Of a stretch of DNA of 21,312 nt, positions 4,217 to 18,716 are shown piece by piece (within the stretch, counting starts at the first letter, position 1; the number at the start of each line of letters is the position of its first letter). The stretch covers positions 1 through 21,312 of the IMG/VR virus record IMGVR_UViG_3300037010_001487. One strand, given 5' to 3'. This DNA comes from a virus. The notes below the pieces were generated by a model. It saw only the letters and a program-made list of their open reading frames with translations. It did not search any database and was not told the DNA's origin. Both the position numbers and the translations under genes were made by a program.

Positions 4217-5272
4217 TTACCGCACCGGCTTGAGCTTTTCGCCATGTACATAGTGCTGGCGGGTAACGCTCAAACTGCTGTGCTGCAGCAGGGCTGATGC
4301 ATCAGCCAGTGAGCCGGCCAGCTGGCCTGCGCGCTTGCGCATGTCGCGCAGCCAAAGGTGCGCCACTTCGGGGCACTCGGCCTTCGCTTTGGTGCGTGCC
4401 TCGTCAAACCGTGCCTTGAGCATGCGGTAGGTGATGGGCTTGCGGCCGGCGGCCAGGATGAAGATGTGCTCGGGGGCCTTCAGGGCCTTGCGGCGCTCAA
4501 TGATGGGCTGCAGCACGGTGGATGCTGCCAGGTCAAACTCGGCCCGCTTGCCGGTCTTGCCGGCCTTGACCACCAGCATGCCGGCGCGCACGTCAGTGAG
4601 GCGCAGGGCCAGCACGTCCATCACACGCAGGCCGGTGGCGGTGGCGATGTCGAGCGCGTCTTTGAGCACCTGGTCGCCGTGCTTGTGCAGGGCGGCAAAG
4701 GCCGCGTCGCCCACGTCGACCTGGCGCGAGGTGGTGGGGCCCTTCCAGCCGCTGCGTTGCATGTCGGCCGCTGGCCAGTGCAGCTCAGTGAGGCCCTGCA
4801 GGCGCGCCCAGCCCCAGATCACGCTGAGCAGCTGCATTTCTTGCTTTGCGCGGGCCTTGGCACTGCGCTGGTCGACGTAGCGCACCAGGGTGGGCATCTT
4901 GATGTCTTCCCACCTGGCGCCGCCGAACGGCCCGCGCAGGGCCGCCAGGCACTTGGTGTAGCCCTTGATCGTTTCGGGGCTGCGTTCGCGGCCGTCGGGG
5001 CGGATCTTGAGGCCGCGCTCTTCCCAGCCCCTGAAGGCCTCTTCCAGCGTGCCGGCGATGCGTGGGGCGTCGAGGTGGATCTCGGCCCAGCGGCGCAAAG
5101 CGGCATCGCGGTCATTGCCCAGCTTGATGTCGGGCTTGCCGGTGCCGCGCATGTCGTACCACCAGCTCGTCCACACCTGGCCGGCTTTGCCGCGCTTGAT
5201 GCTGACACGCAGCTTGGGGTATTTGGAGGGTTTAGGCATGGTGCAGACGTCTAGACGGTCGGGGGGAGCCAT
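4217..5272 (-). CDS. int: Tyrosine-recombinase integrase
   Basis: About 351 residues; catalyses site-specific recombination between attP and attB. N-terminal arm-binding region about 13-70 (PKLRVSIKRGKAGQVWTSWW), core-binding SAM-like domain about 75-165, catalytic domain from about 185. Catalytic residues seen (counting from the ATG at 5272): Arg in ATGLRVMD near 216, the lysine hairpin KAGKTGK near 237-242, RDMR near 309-312 where the usual His-x-x-Arg has Arg in place of His (a frequent phage variant), LQHSS His near 331 and Tyr nucleophile in QHYVHG near 341. ATG 5272 shares its A with the previous stop (TGATG); ATG 5239 is a plausible alternative. It is the last gene before the terminator and lies beside the att core. 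Confidence 0.93.
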   Translation of the reverse strand: MAPPDRLDVCTMPKPSKYPKLRVSIKRGKAGQVWTSWWYDMRGTGKPDIKLGNDRDAALRRWAEIHLDAPRIAGTLEEAFRGWEERGLKIRPDGRERSPETIKGYTKCLAALRGPFGGARWEDIKMPTLVRYVDQRSAKARAKQEMQLLSVIWGWARLQGLTELHWPAADMQRSGWKGPTTSRQVDVGDAAFAALHKHGDQVLKDALDIATATGLRVMDVLALRLTDVRAGMLVVKAGKTGKRAEFDLAASTVLQPIIERRKALKAPEHIFILAAGRKPITYRMLKARFDEARTKAKAECPEVAHLWLRDMRKRAGQLAGSLADASALLQHSSLSVTRQHYVHGEKLKPVR

Positions 5273-5517
5273 CACAGATAGGGGTCAGGCACTTCGCGCA
5301 GGGTGCCAAAGTCATCCATCACGGCACACCACGCTTGCGCATCGTGCCGCAGCAGGTGGCGCGCACATGGCGGCCCGGGCCAAAGGTCATTGCTCCACTC
5401 AGGCGTGCCATCGCCTCGGCTGAACATCACAGGCACCTCCCACAGCCATGGCGCAGCATAGATGCTGCCGTGGCGAACGAGCGTGACGTCAAGGCCCAAC
5501 GCATACTGAATCGTCAT
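5272..5517 (-). CDS. Small phage protein, unknown function
   Basis: An 81-residue protein starting at ATG 5517 and ending in a TGA whose last base is the first of the integrase ATG. It is Trp-rich (WLWEVPVMF, WSNDLWPGPPC, WCAVMDDFG) and contains CARHLLRHDAQAW in the middle. No membrane segment, signal or recognised domain. Its position between the DUF4224 protein and the integrase, and translational coupling to the latter, suggest co-expression with the integration/excision functions. I do not recognise the family. Confidence 0.62.
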   Translation of the reverse strand: MTIQYALGLDVTLVRHGSIYAAPWLWEVPVMFSRGDGTPEWSNDLWPGPPCARHLLRHDAQAWCAVMDDFGTLREVPDPYL

Positions 5518-5739: not shown

Positions 5740-6200
5740 GCTGCAGCCTTTTCCTTTTCCACGGCGTCGGCCATGGCCTGGGTTTGGATCTCTGACCACA
5801 CTGCGGCCTGTTCGGCGGTGACCAGGTCGACGATGTCGGCCAGGTCATCCATGTGGGCCACGCCTTGCTTGGCCAGTTGGTAGTCGGGCCCGTCGAATGC
5901 CACGCGGTTGGTGCGGCCAAAGCGCTCGATGAGGCGCGTGACCACGTCGAGCTGCACGGCCATCTCGGCCACGCCAGCGTCGAGCAGCTGGGCCACGCGC
6001 ACCCAGGTGAGCACGCTGCCGATGTAATCCCACAGCATGGGCGGCTCAGCCTGGCCGGTGGCGATGGCGTCGAGGTTGCTGACGTGGTACAGGCCAAGCT
6101 CACGGCGTTGGGCGGCCGTGAGCTTGGGGCGCAGCGCGCGTGGCAGCTTGGCAAGAAGGGCGCCATTGGGCTTGCGTGGCGGTGGTGGGCGGCGGCTCAC
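5736..6200 (-). CDS. Phage protein, unknown function
   Basis: A 154-residue protein starting at GTG 6200, which shares a base with the upstream TAG; GGAGG lies about 8 bases upstream. The N-terminus is basic and Pro-rich (MSRRPPPPRKPNGALLAKLPRA), followed by a largely alpha-helical body with LTAAQRRELGLYHVSNLDA and an acidic, Ala-rich end (MADAVEKEKAAA). No catalytic motif or membrane segment. The basic start could contact nucleic acid. It belongs to the integration-end gene cluster by overlap on both sides; I do not recognise a named family. Confidence 0.62.
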   Translation of the reverse strand: MSRRPPPPRKPNGALLAKLPRALRPKLTAAQRRELGLYHVSNLDAIATGQAEPPMLWDYIGSVLTWVRVAQLLDAGVAEMAVQLDVVTRLIERFGRTNRVAFDGPDYQLAKQGVAHMDDLADIVDLVTAEQAAVWSEIQTQAMADAVEKEKAAA

Positions 6201-7036
6201 TACATGCCTCCTTCTGTCTTCGCGCCCGAGACTGCAGCGCGATCCAGCCGCTCAATTTCGGCCAGGATCAGCGCGCCGGCGCGCACAAGATCACTGCGGC
6301 GGTCTTTCGGCTTCCACCAACTCGCTGCCCACGGCCAGTAGCCCGGGCACATGCCATCTGGCCGTTGCGGGGCTGCATAGCAGGCAGCCGCAGCGCCAAT
6401 GCTTCCGTCGCTGTGCGCGTCATCGTGTTGCCAGGGCTGGCCAGCCGGATCAACCAGCATGCCGGTGAGCAGCAGGGGCGATGCGCGCAGGCGCCGGCCC
6501 TGCTGGCCGTCTTCAAGCTGTTTGAGGATGGCCTCGGCCTGGTCGTCGGTGATCAGGGCCGGGTGGGTGTTGCGCTGGATCTGCCACTCATGGCGCGGCC
6601 GGCGTTTGTCGCCGTTGATGCTGGCGGTGCCCATGCGCTCGGCGTGCATGCCCCACACGGTGTGGCCGGCGTAGGTGAGGGCCTGCCAGTCCATGCTTTG
6701 GGTGCTGCTGGTGGGCCATGGCAGGGCCAGCTTGGCCACGGCAGTGCCACGCGGCACGCCGCGGGCGCGCATGGCCAGGTAGGCGGCCACCAACGGGCTG
6801 GCCTGGTCGTCGATCACCAGGCGGCTTTTGAGCACGGGCGCACCATCACGCACGGCACCGGTGGCGGTGTAGTCGAGCGTGTAGCCACGCGGGGCCCGGC
6901 CACCGGCGCGCCAGCCCTGGCGCACGTTCTCGGCCATGCCGGCCAGGCCTTTGGCGCGGCTGATGAGGCTGTGGTACTCGTCAAACGCCTGCAGCACGCT
7001 GCGCAGCACCATGTCGGTGGCGGGGGTGGGGCTCAC
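6200..7036 (-). CDS. Large-serine-recombinase-like protein lacking the catalytic domain
   Basis: A 278-residue protein, start GTG 7036 overlapping the previous stop (GTGA). It reads like the middle of a large serine recombinase: helix SRAKGLAGMAENVRQGWRAG, then GGRAPRGYTLD (family pattern GGRPPYGY), LVIDDQASPLVAAYLAMRARG (family LVIDPEEAxxVRxIFxxYxxG), a segment like the helix before the next block (DWQALTYAGHTVWG), then HPALITDDQAEAILKQLEDG and LLLTGMLVDPAGQPW. The last block is where full enzymes have the zinc-ribbon (LLxGLLxCGxCG); the cysteines are absent. The N-terminal resolvase domain with its catalytic Ser is absent and no sequence for it lies upstream. Translational coupling suggests a kept DNA-binding protein rather than debris. 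A role in regulation or excision is inference. Confidence 0.72.
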   Translation of the reverse strand: MSPTPATDMVLRSVLQAFDEYHSLISRAKGLAGMAENVRQGWRAGGRAPRGYTLDYTATGAVRDGAPVLKSRLVIDDQASPLVAAYLAMRARGVPRGTAVAKLALPWPTSSTQSMDWQALTYAGHTVWGMHAERMGTASINGDKRRPRHEWQIQRNTHPALITDDQAEAILKQLEDGQQGRRLRASPLLLTGMLVDPAGQPWQHDDAHSDGSIGAAAACYAAPQRPDGMCPGYWPWAASWWKPKDRRSDLVRAGALILAEIERLDRAAVSGAKTEGGM

Positions 7037-7239
7037 GGTTTGACAAAAAGCTCGCCGCGAATTTCAATGCAAGCGGTCATTTTTCCTGCGGCGGCACTTA
7101 AAAAGCCGTCGGGGCCCCGTGCCAGCTCGGTGGCATCAAATGATGGTGTGTATTCCAACGTCTTGACAACAAAACGGCCGGCGTCGATTGAATCAGCCAA
7201 GTCGCGCAAGGACTTGGAAAAGTGTTCTTGTTTGACCAC
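7033..7239 (-). CDS. Small phage protein, unknown function
   Basis: A 68-residue protein. The frame stays open upstream, but GTG 7239 has a strong GGAGG at 7249-7245, five bases away, so I take that start. The protein (VVKQEHFSKSLRDLADSIDA, then FVVKTLEYTPSFDATELARG and MTACIEIRGELFVKP) looks like a compact alpha/beta fold. Its stop overlaps the next GTG. The reverse-transcriptase remnant lies directly upstream, ending ~36 bases before this start, so the gene probably marks the edge of a deletion. No recognised family. Confidence 0.62.
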   Translation of the reverse strand: MVKQEHFSKSLRDLADSIDAGRFVVKTLEYTPSFDATELARGPDGFLSAAAGKMTACIEIRGELFVKP

Positions 7240-7274
7240 TTGATCCTCCAGGGGAGCGGATATTGCCACGGTAG

Positions 7275-7388
7275 GCCAGGGCGGTAGTGCCCGCTGGCCA
7301 GCTCTTCGTGTAGCTGGTAGAGGTTGCGCTCGGCATGAGCCTCGAATGCCAGCGCTGAGGCGCTGTTGCGCTTGGTGCGTCGGCAGTT
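7275..7388 (-). pseudogene. Remnant of a reverse transcriptase N-terminus (DGR/retron-type)
   Basis: On the minus strand the frame beginning at 7388 reads CRRTKRNSASALAFEAHAER followed by NLYQLHEELASGHYRPG. This resembles the opening of diversity-generating-retroelement reverse transcriptases, which have a basic region, then FE-x6-NLxxLxxEL-x2-GxYRPG before the first polymerase blocks. Immediately after YRPG the homology stops and the sequence runs into the ribosome-binding site of the next gene. No palm motif (YxDD) follows. An ATG in a different frame at 7404 suggests a small frameshift near the original start. The fragment lies 50 bases downstream of a gene with a DGR-like variable region, the usual neighbourhood of such an enzyme. 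Confidence 0.62.
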
Positions 7389-7437
7389 CGGTATGCAAGT
7401 CCATGGTGGCGGTGCTCAGTTCAAAGGATTGAAGGAC

Positions 7438-7911
7438 TTAAGGGGTGACTCTGCGGATGGCCACAGCAGCGCCTTCGGCGCTCTTGCGGTCGTACTCCTG
7501 GCTGCCGTTGATGAAGGTGCAGTCCCAGGCGAACGAGGCGTCTTGCTCGTGCTGCTGGCAGGACCATTGCCAAACGGGCTTCAGGTGCGGCTTGCAGTTG
7601 GCGTACAGCAAGGCCTGCTCTTGCCGGTCGGGCAGCGATCCGCCGATTTCTTCAGCCCAGGCCATGGCGTCGTCCCAATCAAGATCGCTGTCGGGGCGCG
7701 GGGCCATCAGCACCAGGTGGTGCTTGATCTTGCCGTCAGCATCAAGCACGGTGCCGGCGTAGTGCTCACCGACCTGCAGTGTGATGGTGGCCTCAGGCAC
7801 GATGAGCAGCGTGGGCCGGCTCGTGGGCTTCGATTGCTCGGTAAGTGCGGCAATCAAAACGGCCAAGCGGTTGTGCTCGGCCTGGATGTCTTCAAGGGTG
7901 ATCGTGGTCAC
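7438..7911 (-). CDS. DUF1566-like (C-type-lectin-fold) protein A with DGR-like variable C-terminus
   Basis: A 157-residue protein. GTG 7911 has GGAGAGA at 7923-7917, spacing 5; the open frame upstream is Arg-rich out-of-frame sequence of its neighbour. The N-terminal third (TITLEDIQAEHNRLAVLIAA) is helical. The body (DWDDAMAWAEEIGGSLPDRQ, ALLYANCKPHLKPVWQWSC, SFAWDCTFINGSQEYDRKSA, ending GAAVAIRRV) follows the DUF1566-like pattern WxxAxxWAxxxGGxLPxRxE...YWSS...A...G....AVRR, which has a C-type-lectin-like fold used for display in DGR targets. The last 30 codons before the terminal residues align without gaps to protein B and show AAC-type diversification. No signal peptide. The binding target is unknown. 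Confidence 0.75.
   Translation of the reverse strand: MTTITLEDIQAEHNRLAVLIAALTEQSKPTSRPTLLIVPEATITLQVGEHYAGTVLDADGKIKHHLVLMAPRPDSDLDWDDAMAWAEEIGGSLPDRQEQALLYANCKPHLKPVWQWSCQQHEQDASFAWDCTFINGSQEYDRKSAEGAAVAIRRVTP
7453..7542 (-). repeat. Variable-region-like repeat, copy in protein A
   Basis: Thirty codons that align without gaps to 7968-8057. The distal part (7488-7459, encoding RKSAEGAAVA) is identical over 30 bases in both copies and includes an AGCGCC-GAA-GGCGCT inverted repeat, as expected for an initiation-of-mutagenic-homing end. The proximal part contains codons TTC, GAC, ACC, ATC, AAC, AGC, TAC and GAC, where the partner has TAC, TGC, CGC, GAC, GAC, GGC, GAC and ACC: always C in third position. 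Confidence 0.65.
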
Positions 7912-7946
7912 GGGTGTCTCTCCTGTGGTTTGAAAGGATTGAAGGA

Positions 7947-8378
7947 TCAAGCGGTCAAGGGAATCAAGCGGACGGCCACAGCAGCGCCTTCGGCGCTCTT
8001 GCGGGTGTCGTTCTGGCCGCCGTCGTCGAAGCGGCAGCACCAGGCGTACGAGGCATCGTCTTCGTCTCCGGTGTCTGCTTCGAGGGAGTCACAAGTCCAG
8101 TGCCATTCGGGCTGCAGCTTGGCCTTTGCATGGTCGTACAACAGGGCGGCCACGGGGTGGGTCGGCAGGTGGCCATCGACGCTTTCGGCCCAGGCCTTGG
8201 CGTCTTGCCAGGACAAACGGCGACCAGGCTTGGCATCGACCAGCACCACCGCGTAGTGGATGCCGTCTTTGCCGGTGGTGATGCCCTGAAACGTTCCGCC
8301 TTCCAGTGGCTGGCCCAGTGGAGGCAGGCTGGAAAACAGGATGGCCGCAATAACGGCGTGCTTCAGGGTTTCGGTCAT
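7947..8378 (-). CDS. DUF1566-like (C-type-lectin-fold) protein B with DGR-like variable C-terminus
   Basis: A 143-residue paralogue of protein A, start ATG 8378 with AAAGGAG nine bases upstream. Unlike A it begins with a hydrophobic stretch, MTETLKHAVIAAILFSSLPP, which could be a weak signal or anchor. The body (LSWQDAKAWAESVDGHLPTH, ALLYDHAKAKLQPEWHWTCD, ASYAWCCRFDDGGQNDTRKS, ending GAAVAVRLIPLTA) follows the same DUF1566-like pattern. It is only partly similar to A over most of its length, yet the DNA of the last conserved block is identical. This suggests recent copying of that block from a shared source. Its gene precedes A in the operon with 35 bases between the stop and the next start. 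Confidence 0.75.
   Translation of the reverse strand: MTETLKHAVIAAILFSSLPPLGQPLEGGTFQGITTGKDGIHYAVVLVDAKPGRRLSWQDAKAWAESVDGHLPTHPVAALLYDHAKAKLQPEWHWTCDSLEADTGDEDDASYAWCCRFDDGGQNDTRKSAEGAAVAVRLIPLTA
7968..8057 (-). repeat. Variable-region-like repeat, copy in protein B
   Basis: Partner of 7453-7542, 30 codons. Of 16 base differences between the copies, 14 fall at first or second codon positions and 2 at third positions, the reverse of ordinary divergence. The 30-base block encoding RKSAEGAAVA is identical. Downstream of both genes the motif TCCTTCAATCCTTT is also shared (minus strand). Confidence 0.65.
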
Positions 8379-9611: not shown

Positions 9612-10132
9612 GCTGCCCTCAGCTCAGCAAACCGCGCCAAAAACATCGCCCTGGCCGTCTCCGGTGACACCGGCTTGATGACGACGGGCAGCAGCTCAAG
9701 GCCTGCAGTGCAATCCCATTGGTCTTGGTAGTCGGGCATCAGGTCGCGCTTCTCGGTGCCCAGCAGCACCAGGTCGGCGTGCTTGACCGAAGCAGGGAGC
9801 TTCGCCGGCAGCCCATACCGGCCGAACACGGCCGCCTCCACGCGGTCTTCGATCACCTTGTAGTCGGGCAACAACTGCTTGAGCGGTTTGGCCACGTCGC
9901 CAATGAATGCTTCGGCAGCGTCATGCATCAGGCCTGCAAAAGCGTCTTCGGCCGGCACGATGTGCGACACCAGCACAGAGTGCTGCGCGACGCTGTAGAA
10001 CGTGTGCACGTGGCCCGTGAAACGACAGATGTGGCTCAGCGCGTGAGCGATGTCCACGATGGTGAATTCGCATTTCTCGGGATTGAGGAAGTCGAAGTAG
10101 GTGCCGCCTTGGGTGAGGATGTCGGGGCGCAT
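9608..10132 (-). CDS. HD-domain phosphohydrolase (YfbR-like nucleotidase)
   Basis: A 174-residue protein; ATG 10132 shares a base with the upstream TGA (TGATG). HD-family metal ligands are visible: His in [10 protein letters not shown] near 51, the His-Asp pair in [14 protein letters not shown] near 70-71, and Asp in [15 protein letters not shown]. The segment [20 protein letters not shown] is typical of phage HD proteins related to 5'-deoxynucleotidase YfbR. The likely role is hydrolysis of deoxynucleoside monophosphates or other nucleotides during phage DNA synthesis; substrate specificity cannot be read from sequence. The adjacent methyltransferase hints at nucleotide/DNA modification metabolism but does not prove a link. 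Confidence 0.85.
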
Positions 10133-11364
10133 CAAACCACCCCCACATCGTCAGCAGCCAACACGGCGCGATGGCCATCGGAGTTCATCGCGCCTACCAG
10201 CCCTTCGGCTTCCATGCGCTCGAACAAGCGCGCGGCGCGGTTGTAGCCAATGCGCAGATGCCGCTGCACCAGGCTGATGCTGGCCTTGTTGTGCGTTCGC
10301 ACGATGGTGCAGGCCTGCTCATAGAGCGGATCGGGTGTGTCAACACCACCAGCCATCAGCGTTTTGCCGCTGGCATCCTTGATCTCAAATCTGGTGCCGC
10401 CTTCGCGCGCCAGATTGTCAAGCCGGGCCGCGGCTTCTTTGGCATCGCCGGCCGTGGCTGCTTCAATCGGTAGTTGAGCCTGCCCGCCCAGGTTCAACAG
10501 CAGTTCGTACAGCAACTTCGACAGCACGCCGGTGGTGATCGCCACGTCAGCATCAAAGGAATCTTCGCCCTGGTCTTGCGCACGGCGCTCCATCATCGCG
10601 GCATCGGCAATCTGCACGCGCTGGATCCTCAGGTCATCGACAAGCACGAATGACACGCGGGCATCGTGGGTCAGTGCCAGCTTGGTGGGCACCTTGCCGG
10701 TTTGCAGATGGCGGGCCACGTCGCGCCCATCAAGCGCGTGGTTCTGGTACCGCACGATCGCGTGATCGTTGGATGCGCTCTCAAGCACTGCGTCGCGGTC
10801 AATGGTCAGACCAAGCGGCGTGCCGTTCAGCATCCAGGCGGCCATGGTGCTGTCGACCGATCTGGCAACGCGCAGCAGATGCAGGTTCAACTTGGGCCAT
10901 GCCTGAATCAAACCGGTGGCCACCACATCGGCCTTGCTTTGGCTTGCGGAATCGATCACAAGCAGTTTGTCGGCCGGGCTGATCCACGCCAGGATCGACG
11001 TGCGGCGCGTGAAAGCCACCGGCAGCAGCTCAAGCCGCGCCTGGTCGGCCAGTTCACGGCGGGCCCGCTTGCCCGGCTTGCGGCCGGTGTCTCGCTCCAC
11101 TTCGTCGGCCAACTCGTTGGTGCGGCGTTTGACCACATCCTCGGGCAACAACTTGGCCTCGGTCATCTGTTTGACGATCCACGCGCCGGCCACGTTCTCG
11201 ACCAGTTGGCCATGCTCGAAGCCTCGCGGCGGAACCCAGCCGGTGCTGGTGGCTTGGGTCTTGCCGCAGGGCACAAAGCCACCGGGCGCCATGGCTTCGG
11301 ACAGCTCGTGCGCACTGTCGGGCATATCGGCATTTATCGCATAGATGATCAGGTTTTTGAACAC
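10132..11364 (-). CDS. rdgC: RdgC-like recombination protein fused to an FtsK gamma (KOPS-reading) domain
   Basis: A 410-residue protein. GTG 11364 is chosen because GGAG lies at 11374-11371 and the next residues FKNLIIYAI match the conserved RdgC opening (FKNLIIYRL). RdgC features follow: [89 protein letters not shown]. RdgC is a ring-shaped DNA-binding dimer that restrains RecA. From about residue 345 a different domain begins, [20 protein letters not shown] then [20 protein letters not shown], a close match to the winged-helix FtsK gamma domain that reads KOPS in the chromosome terminus. The fusion is directly visible; whether it targets KOPS is inference. Confidence 0.85.
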
Positions 11365-11385
11365 TCGGGACTCCGGTTGCGGTTG

Positions 11386-11468
11386 AAGAAAAACGGGCGG
11401 CCCACTGGGCTCGGCAAGGGGAAGGGAGGGAGACTTACAGGAGGGGTTACCCTTGCCGACTCGCCCGT
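11386..11468 (-). promoter_or_regulatory. Nested inverted repeats before rdgC: candidate attenuator or structured leader
   Basis: In the 124-base gap between the IS110-domain gene and rdgC, two nested perfect inverted repeats occur: outer CGCCCGT/ACGGGCG (11462-11468 with 11393-11399) and inner CCCTTGCCG/CGGCAAGGG (11450-11458 with 11412-11420). A small GCCC-ACT-GGGC hairpin sits in the 12-base bulge of one side. On the minus strand the outer stem is followed by a T-rich tract TTTTTCTTC, as in an intrinsic terminator. The purine/pyrimidine-biased loop is 29 bases. It could attenuate or process the operon transcript before rdgC. Confidence 0.45.
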
Positions 11469-11488
11469 GAAAACTGGTGTTAGGCGAA

Positions 11489-12691
11489 TCAGTGAACCGT
11501 TGGCTTGTAGGCATGCAGTCCGTGCAAGTTCTTCCAGGCAATCCACAGATCGCGCAGCAAGCGCTTTTCCATGTACCGCTGGGCGCGTGCGTGGATGTGG
11601 CCCTGTGACATGCACTTGTCGGCCTCGCCCTTCTTGATCTGGGCGGCGGGCTTGACTGTCAGGCCTGCGGCCTCGGCCTTCTGCACCTCGTAGGCCTTGC
11701 GTGCCAAGTAGATCTCGCGGTAGGGGCCTTGGCACTTCAACAGCGAATCGCCGATGACGAACATGGTGGAGCGGCGGCGCGGGCTGTACCCGTGGCGGAT
11801 AGCAAGGGCCGCGTCACCCGCGATGCACTGCTGGCGCTTGCCGTCAACGATGCCCAGGCCCATGCGCTTCCAGACCTTGGCCGGGTTGCTGTAGTTGCTC
11901 AGGTCGCCGCACTTGCCAACGATCTGAGCCAGGCCGATTTCCCCGAAGCCACGGGTGCTCTGCACAAAGCTGTAGATGGACAACTTCTTGGCAAGGGCTC
12001 TCAGTTTTCCTTCGCAGTGAAGCTTTCCGGCATGCGCTACGTCGCGCTTTTGAAGGCGGCACCGAATGGAGAATTCCTCGTCGCGGTCTTCACGGCCAAC
12101 GGCACCGGCATCAATGGCCTTGTAAAGATCATCGGCGGCCTTCTTTGTCGCAGCTACAGCCTTGTCGTCATCGCCGGGGTGAATGGACCTGCCAATGCGC
12201 CTGCACGTTGCTTTGATGTTTCGCGTCTCGTTGCCTTCGTCGCGCATCATGTCGTCGCGCTGCTTCTCCCACTCGGAAATCAGGGCGATGATGTCGGCAG
12301 GGGCAGGCAAACGATCAGTGGGTTTCGTGCCGTTCGTGGTCTGCCCCTGCTCGACAAAGGGTTCCACGTTGGCGGCAATGCTGGCTGGGGCTTCACTGCA
12401 ATACTGGCCGCTCAACGTGGAAGAGGGTTCGTTGAATGGGGTTGCACCCGACGGGTGGGTTTCACTATGGCTTTGGAAACCCTCACTCAACGAATTGGGT
12501 TCTTCTGCTGGGGTGGCACCAGTGTTATGGGTTGCGGGGGTAACAAGGCATCCCACAACAGAAGAATTAGGTTGATGAGGAATCGGCACCCGGACACGGG
12601 GTTGCATCTGACCTCTGGCCGCAGCCTCATCAAAAAGGGAGGGGGTGTGGTGGACACCGGGACGCTGGGCAACAACTCTTGTGCGGTCCAT
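11489..12691 (-). CDS. Phage protein with IS110-transposase-like C-terminal domain, no RuvC domain
   Basis: A 400-residue protein; ATG 12691 shares a base with the previous stop (TGATG), and AAGGGGG precedes it. Residues ~1-130 are low-complexity and contain two similar segments, THNTGATPAEEPNSLS and THPSGATPFNEPSSTLS. After a helical linker, the C-terminal half reads like the Tnp (Transposase_20) domain of IS110/IS116: FGEIGLAQIVGKCGDLSNYS, AKVWKRMGLGI, then RRRSTMFVIGDSLLKCQGPY and REIYLARKAYEVQKAEAA, ending AQRYMEKRLLRDLWIAWKN. The N-terminal DEDD RuvC-like domain is missing, and the Ser-Gly expected after the GLxP region is not obvious. It sits in a recombination gene cluster, so it is likely a repurposed DNA-binding protein rather than an insertion element. 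No terminal repeats are seen. Confidence 0.65.
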   Translation of the reverse strand: MDRTRVVAQRPGVHHTPSLFDEAAARGQMQPRVRVPIPHQPNSSVVGCLVTPATHNTGATPAEEPNSLSEGFQSHSETHPSGATPFNEPSSTLSGQYCSEAPASIAANVEPFVEQGQTTNGTKPTDRLPAPADIIALISEWEKQRDDMMRDEGNETRNIKATCRRIGRSIHPGDDDKAVAATKKAADDLYKAIDAGAVGREDRDEEFSIRCRLQKRDVAHAGKLHCEGKLRALAKKLSIYSFVQSTRGFGEIGLAQIVGKCGDLSNYSNPAKVWKRMGLGIVDGKRQQCIAGDAALAIRHGYSPRRRSTMFVIGDSLLKCQGPYREIYLARKAYEVQKAEAAGLTVKPAAQIKKGEADKCMSQGHIHARAQRYMEKRLLRDLWIAWKNLHGLHAYKPTVH

Positions 12692-18008: not shown

Positions 18009-18716
18009 TCAGTACGCCTCAGCTTCTGCACGGGTGATGAAAAAGTGGATGCCTGGAGCGCATTCGGTTTGCCAGTCGTCGCTGAACGAATCCGGCGTTA
18101 CGCGATTACCCGCGATGTACTGAGTTTTTCCGTCATACCTTGCAATGCCGACTTCAGCGCCGATCACTTGCAATACATCAGCAAATTCAGCGCGGCACTT
18201 TCGGCCAAATGCATGCGAGCGCTTTGCATCGGCGGGGATGCGCAATTGCACGATCACACCGCCTTGACACTTTTTCCAACCGATCAGATCACCATCGGGA
18301 AGGATGCGAGTGCACGCTATCGCAAGCTCAACTCCAACGGCACCGCTCAGGTTGGCACCGCTCAGGTTGGCACCGCTCAGGTTGGCACCGCTCAGGTTGG
18401 CACCGCTCAGGTCGGCACCGCTCAGGTTGGCACCGCTCAGGTCGGCACCGCTCAGGTCGGCACCGCTCAGGTTGGCACTGATCAGGTCGGCACCGCTCAG
18501 GTAGGCACCGATCAGGTCGGCACCGCTCAGGTTGGTACCGATCAGGTTGGCACCGATCAGGTCGGCACCGCTCAGGTCGGCACCGCTCAGGTTGGTACGG
18601 CTTTGCGCAGCTTTTTCCAACGCATGCCGCGTATGCAAACCACTATCTATGTCATCCGGCACGTCGCACTCAAAGAGCACGGCATCTGTGAATCGGTGCT
18701 TGATCTGAACTTTCAT
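18009..18716 (-). CDS. Pentapeptide-repeat protein with DUF5758-like C-terminal domain
   Basis: A 235-residue protein from ATG 18716 (overlapping the stop of a 29-aa gene). Residues 1-41 form an N-terminal lead ([20 protein letters not shown]). Residues 42-126 are 17 perfect-length pentapeptides of type A(D/N)LSG, which fold as a right-handed quadrilateral beta-helix. The C-terminal domain ([58 protein letters not shown]) matches the DUF5758-type domain commonly fused to pentapeptide repeats in phages and plasmids. The repeats are nearly identical at DNA level (15-bp unit), so repeat number can change easily. Pentapeptide proteins can mimic DNA, but no partner is evident. Confidence 0.85.
18339..18593. 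repeat. Tandem array of 17 units of 15 bp in the pentapeptide gene
   Basis: The plus strand shows GGCACCGCTCAGGTT repeated in register with few substitutions (for example CTCAGGTC, ATCAGG, GTACC variants). Each unit encodes one A(D/N)LSG pentapeptide on the minus strand. Units near the 3' end of the gene are most uniform, and those near the 5' end carry most variants, as expected from expansion at one side. Confidence 0.85.

Follow-up and report, generated by a model that had tools for sequence, protein, structure and literature searches.

Two adjacent genes encoding small lectin-like proteins in a 21.3-kb IMG/VR phage fragment (IMGVR_UViG_3300037010_001487; all 21,312 nt of it are hereafter called the window) are very probably former targets of a diversity-generating retroelement (DGR) that has decayed and left them orphaned, and are now fixed in sequence. 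The ancestral cassette would have consisted of lectin A, lectin B, Avd, a template repeat (TR) and an RT. This RT would have made adenine-mutagenised copies of the AAC-rich TR, and these would have been written over the 3′-terminal part of both lectin genes; the two resulting variable regions (VRs) have a common backbone and diverge where the template has an adenine. Nearly the whole of Avd, together with the TR and the start of the RT, would then have been lost in a deletion between the copies of a 6-bp repeat, and the remaining RT in a second deletion or replacement, leaving the lectins as intact ORFs of fixed sequence. We infer the order of these events, the lack of a co-resident DGR acting in trans, and the reason for the loss of the core. 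The features of the locus are listed in Table 1.

Table 1 Features of the lectin locus and of the lost retroelement in the window
Feature	Position	Strand	Basis or remark
Integrase	4217-5275		window gene
123-aa ORF	7033-7404	-	Avd start, out-of-frame RT and unrelated downstream sequence
RT remnant, 37 codons (CRRTKRNSASALAFEAHAERNLYQLHEELASGHYRPG), model positions 130-167	7274-7385	-	out of frame with the surrounding ORF
Deletion junction, 6-bp microhomology ACTGCC	7382-7387	-	common to Avd codons 6-8 and RT at about codon 131 of the model
Avd remnant, start codon and first ~8 codons (ATGGACTTGCATACCGAACTGCC)	7382-7404	-	protein match MxLHTELP
AT-rich 8-bp direct repeat (TCCTTCAATCCTTT) just 3′ of VR B	7423-7436	-	
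Target gene B, C-type-lectin-fold protein with N-terminal helix, 157 aa, GTG start	7438-7911	-	AlphaFold2, Lcl_C family
VR of gene B	7453-7542	-	differences from VR A on TR-A columns of relatives
30-bp identical block at VR 3′ end, gene B (IMH position)	7459-7488	-	
AT-rich 8-bp direct repeat (TCCTTCAATCCTTT) just 3′ of VR A	7933-7946	-	
Target gene A, small C-type-lectin-like protein, 143 aa, upstream of the pair	7947-8378	-	ORF
VR of gene A	7968-8057	-	differences from VR B on TR-A columns of relatives
30-bp identical block at VR 3′ end, gene A (IMH position)	7974-8003	-	

Both lectin ORFs are intact in the window, and gene A belongs to a family whose relatives are 26-60% identical. A sequence-only reading of this DNA had counted 16 differences between the two VRs, 14 at codon positions 1-2 and 2 at third positions, and our recount over 90 bases agrees with it (9/5/2 by position). 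The near-universal NNC form of the changed codons was likewise borne out, as both copies carry NNC throughout the variable core with GAG/AAC as the sole exception, and the identical 30-base block beside clearly diverged protein bodies is real. Outside the VR, the genes share 50.5% nucleotide identity over 101 aligned codons, with differences distributed 52/45/53 by codon position. Third positions are 93% identical in the VR versus 48% elsewhere. By the Nei-Gojobori method, the bodies yield dN 0.60 and dS 1.38 (dN/dS 0.43), and the VRs dN 0.25 and dS 0.05 (dN/dS 4.8).

The description of these proteins as DUF1566-like holds at the level of the family, since Lcl_C/PF07603 matches 35 out of 35 members (best E 6e-7), versus an E-value of only 0.015 for the window protein itself. 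The AlphaFold2 model of gene B displays a C-type-lectin fold with an N-terminal helix (pLDDT 95), so that this gene carries a C-terminal VR within such a fold. Its best PDB match is 8q4e, the C-terminal domain of Legionella Lcl (E 9e-5), and many other C-type lectins also match. The model of gene A has a pLDDT of 82 with low confidence in the VR loop. Because of the fold and the VR, it is natural to infer that the lectins would bind a variable partner.

Related phages harbor the complete cassette, in the order lectin-(lectin)-Avd-TR-RT. Burkholderia phage Magia, Shewanella phage QDWS and loci L004 and L006-L009 encode one or two homologous lectins followed by Avd, an AAC-rich TR (for example GCC TGG AAT TGC AAC TTC AAC AAC GGC AAC CAG AAC AAC AAC) and RT. 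An intact RT beside the lectins, defined as a match of at least 400 residues in one ORF, was found in 74 distinct related loci, to which the window targets are linked by homology and synteny. Among these we found no close relative of the window phage with an intact cassette, the nearest proteins being about 60% identical. Tandem lectins in the early operon, at first regarded as unusual, turned out to be typical of this phage family. One member (L088:4389-10836) displays four lectin VRs across about 6 kb and a single TR with zero mismatches outside template A; this TR serves VRs up to 6.7 kb distant.

In this family the template is adjoined by a structured RNA that has no designation other than RT-15 (Rfam RF03018). 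It matched all 11 intact cassettes tested with 142-169 bits (L061:6844-7035, L066:6853-7047, L125:7266-7454 and eight more), on the same strand and, in the cases compared, ending at the TR start. RT-15 looks like the 5′ leader of the template RNA in this DGR family.

The templates of these relatives account for most of the differences between the window VRs. When the VRs were aligned to the consensus of 23 relatives' TRs, in which 25 of 90 columns are A, 13 of the 16 differences fell on A columns (hypergeometric P 1e-6). The other three are a third-base change in the first codon (position 7540), the third-base change in GAG/AAC, and ATC/GTC within the conserved tail; the last two would fit drift after the loss of the core. 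Across 140 VR-TR pairs of the family, template A was changed in 1594 of 3633 cases (44%), against 42 of 4274 for C (1%), 55 of 2919 for G (2%) and 111 of 1774 for T (6%), a T rate to which pairs whose TR is not the exact parent may contribute. Moreover, the near-identical phages L062 and L064, both with an intact cassette, have the same TR sequence and are separated by 50 mismatches in 9.2 kb, and one of their VRs differs at 14 sites, 13 of which are TR A; therefore, the DGR of this family works in nature. Sequence comparison thus establishes adenine-specific variation, and the external template provided by relatives is strong evidence for a DGR origin, above the codon-position skew of the VRs, which by itself is modest relative to the rest of the genes (Fisher P 0.09). 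The initial proposal of twin DGR-type VRs in lectin-fold genes, copied from a shared template with adenine mutagenesis, is upheld by these comparisons, as is the expectation that variation in related phages concentrates on template adenines.

Directly downstream of gene B, scars of Avd and RT occur in the expected order, strand and place. The lectin-Avd junction has 83% DNA identity to L061, and the RT remnant has 84% DNA identity to L066 (tblastn E 1.8e-22 over the 36.5-kb contig described below; HMM 6e-15). Beyond this remnant, at about RT codon 170, the DNA is unrelated. The 123-aa ORF that spans the scars was rejected as a gene and regarded as an accidental fusion. Missing from the window are most of Avd (about 8 codons are left), the RT-15 RNA (absent in an Rfam search), the TR and the remainder of the RT. 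The whole window is contained with two mismatches in a second contig (G001, IMGVR_UViG_3300035180_001067, 36.5 kb). Neither the window nor these 36.5 kb hold a DGR-type RT besides the 37-codon remnant, or a TR or third VR-like copy besides the two VRs; both are fragments, and judging from the 45 kb of the relative Magia, 8-9 kb of the window phage may be unseen. Across all of IMG/VR, the exact 26-bp IMH block occurred in no contig besides the same phage. The three components of a functional DGR, namely intact RT, TR and Avd, are all absent here. The idea that a template and an RT are still to be located elsewhere in the genome is not borne out: relatives indicate that template, Avd and RT existed, but here they were deleted, with scars from 7404 to 7274. 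As far as sequence can tell, the loss of the core and the identity of the TR are established.

A second prophage in the same cell could still supply RT and TR in trans and so diversify the orphan targets. The preserved VRs and 3′ repeats would suit this scenario, as would two single-lectin contigs with no RT in view (L172 and L173), between which two VR codons are changed (TAC/TTC, in each case the same base change at A). Nevertheless, these contigs are fragments of 4-5 kb, retrohoming needs matching TR and VR ends while no TR with the window IMH occurs in IMG/VR, and none of the 34 differences between the RT-less L057 and L059 over 6.2 kb lies in the VRs or lectin genes. Diversification in trans is thus very improbable. 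An active DGR with TR, Avd and RT outside the 21-kb window is very unlikely. It would agree with intact VRs, with the lack of differences in the 30-bp block, and with the reach of the single TR of L088, but the Avd and RT scars sit at the normal site, the 36.5-kb contig has neither TR nor RT, and the VRs are identical in the two assemblies, even if these are nearly clonal.

An assembly artefact in which the cassette collapsed at its repeats is highly unlikely. VR/TR repeats can confuse short-read assembly, yet the junctions are located off the repeats, at Avd codon 8/RT codon ~131 and at RT codon ~170, and breakpoints away from the VR/TR repeats therefore argue against a collapse. Besides, only two mismatches separate the two contigs over 21.3 kb, though they may derive from one project. 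Finally, it is scarcely credible that diversifying selection or gene conversion acting on ordinary paralogues produced the pattern in the absence of a retroelement, for although tandem lectin genes could exchange sequence and the codon-position skew alone is weak, the AAC codons of the TR fall exactly at the variable columns, change is specific to adenines and an RT remnant remains in situ, so that the TRs and the RT scar already refute this reading.

Loss of the DGR core, as proposed for the orphaned lectins of the window, is not confined to this phage. Scans with lectin alignments, together with the phage hits and followed by merging of near-identical records, yielded 125 distinct loci from Burkholderiales prophages and IMG/VR contigs. 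Among these, 74 had an intact RT. A single fixed rule divided the others into 29 RT-less loci, where enough downstream DNA is present but the RT is missing or reduced to a small piece, 13 with a partial or split RT and 9 that were not judgeable. One locus (L197) was removed from the RT-less class, as its RT lies elsewhere in the record, and whole-record searches with an RT profile found no intact RT in the other RT-less records searched. Hence, 28 of 102 classified loci have lectins without an intact RT. Some retain scars of Avd only (1-47 in L046, 1-57 in L057/L059), others of both Avd and RT (L075, Avd 1-63 with RT 440-477; L166, Avd 1-24 joined to RT 428-478; L101, Avd with RT 431-478) or of RT only (L039, 22-91 and 430-477; L060, 410-478; L108, 409-478; L192, 443-478). 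In L039, RT-15 survives (192 bits) despite the loss of the TR and RT core. In L060 (6001-6966), a third lectin follows gene B at the site of relatives' Avd/TR, beside an HNH piece and RT 410-478.

On a tree of gene-B homologues with the VR left out, the RT state requires 14 changes, a rough count given 119 columns and many unresolved forks, and at least 5 of them are forced by well supported branches. Near neighbours of opposite RT state include L166/L168 and L069/L071. Among RT-less relatives, body dN/dS in the least diverged pairs is 0.32-0.56, which suggests that these lectin bodies are under constraint; some branches may predate the loss.

HNH-type genes were often found where the core is missing. 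Within 2.5 kb of the last lectin, they occur in 10 of 28 RT-less loci (L003, L039, L060, L068, L075, L077, L101, L108, L157 and L192) versus 0 of 74 intact loci (P 6e-7), and within 6 kb in 10 versus 1 (P 6e-6), in a test for which query proteins were picked from RT-less loci, groups were defined after looking, and Avd and RT occupy most of the first 2 kb of intact loci. Four of the encoded proteins have Pfam support for HNH_3, in one case together with NUMOD4; those of the L075/L039 type have no Pfam match and were called HNH-like from a motif by eye. The window has no HNH gene at the site of its lost core. A group I intron as carrier of these genes was discarded, as no Rfam intron occurs in the ten loci, and simple insertion was rejected because the flanking RT pieces do not sum to a whole RT. 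The HNH genes could instead represent invasion with replacement of the core. We tentatively propose, as a possibility somewhat short of even, that this family repeatedly and selectively loses the DGR core and keeps the lectins, often through an HNH (homing-type) endonuclease gene that replaces Avd-TR-RT; some phages would thereby lock in a selected lectin, and RT-less lineages would long keep undiversified lectins. We found no report of recurrent core loss with kept targets or of HNH replacement, which is weak evidence of novelty given incomplete coverage of the literature.

Among the closest known systems are the DGRs of Magia (MT701587; genes 047 and 046, Avd 045, RT 044) and of Shewanella phage vB_Sb_QDWS, with tandem early-operon lectins that are homologous to the window pair (44% and about 30% identical). 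Both resemble the window phage in their AAC-derived VR codons and, in contrast to it, have kept Avd, TR and RT after the lectins. In the GenBank record of Magia, these lectins already carry the remark 'possible DGR target, contains IMH-like region'. Bordetella phage BPP-1 (mtd) likewise has a lectin-fold target with a C-terminal VR and adenine mutagenesis, and Avd and RT as in the intact relatives, although its target is a tail fibre and those of this family are small early-operon proteins. Lcl_C (DUF1566) targets of DGRs in Legionella and Bacteroides uniformis phages (PMC8143477) belong to the same fold family as the window lectins, which differ from them by residing in other phages, in an early operon, and with no retroelement left. 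In surveyed clades, phage DGR targets are mostly tail proteins, with many others of unknown class (Roux et al., PMC8144416). The family described here thus displays a DGR aimed at small early-operon lectins, not tail fibres. DGR catalogues are built on the RT, and targets that outlive their retroelement are invisible to such surveys; the scars of the lost parts date the window VRs as fossils. Many relatives reached an equal outcome through different breakpoints, and therefore 'diversify, then freeze' is testable in a real phage family.

BPP-1 requires a GC-rich hairpin 3′ of the VR (PMC3240598). This family has instead an AT-rich 8-bp direct repeat, whose pattern occurs in 149 of 196 VR flanks, 0 of 70 TR flanks and 2.8 of 196 shuffled flanks, as counted on the very flanks from which it was derived. 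Hairpins of at least 5 bp are not enriched (28 of 197 VR flanks vs 12 of 70 TR flanks), and a BPP-1-like GC-rich hairpin was rejected on this count. The direct repeat may be a VR-specific target mark that replaces the hairpin.

The lectin pair (7438-8378) lies in the early/integration region, as indicated by the integrase and, upstream on the minus strand, genes for a cytosine methylase, an RdgC-like protein, an SbcC-like ATPase, a RecT-like recombinase (named by homology to Magia genes) and a PD-(D/E)XK nuclease. The only differences between the window and G001 over 21.3 kb are at 10123 and 10126, 3 bases apart at the start of a phosphohydrolase gene. A 278-aa protein (6200-7036) has a weak serine-recombinase match (PF07508), apparently without the catalytic domain, and its C-terminal 70 residues are common to many phage proteins of unknown function. 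Meanwhile, one protein (10132-11541) fuses an RdgC domain with an FtsK gamma DNA-binding domain, and a 15-bp repeat array is found at 18294-18662, in a pentapeptide-repeat gene with a DUF5758 C-terminus.
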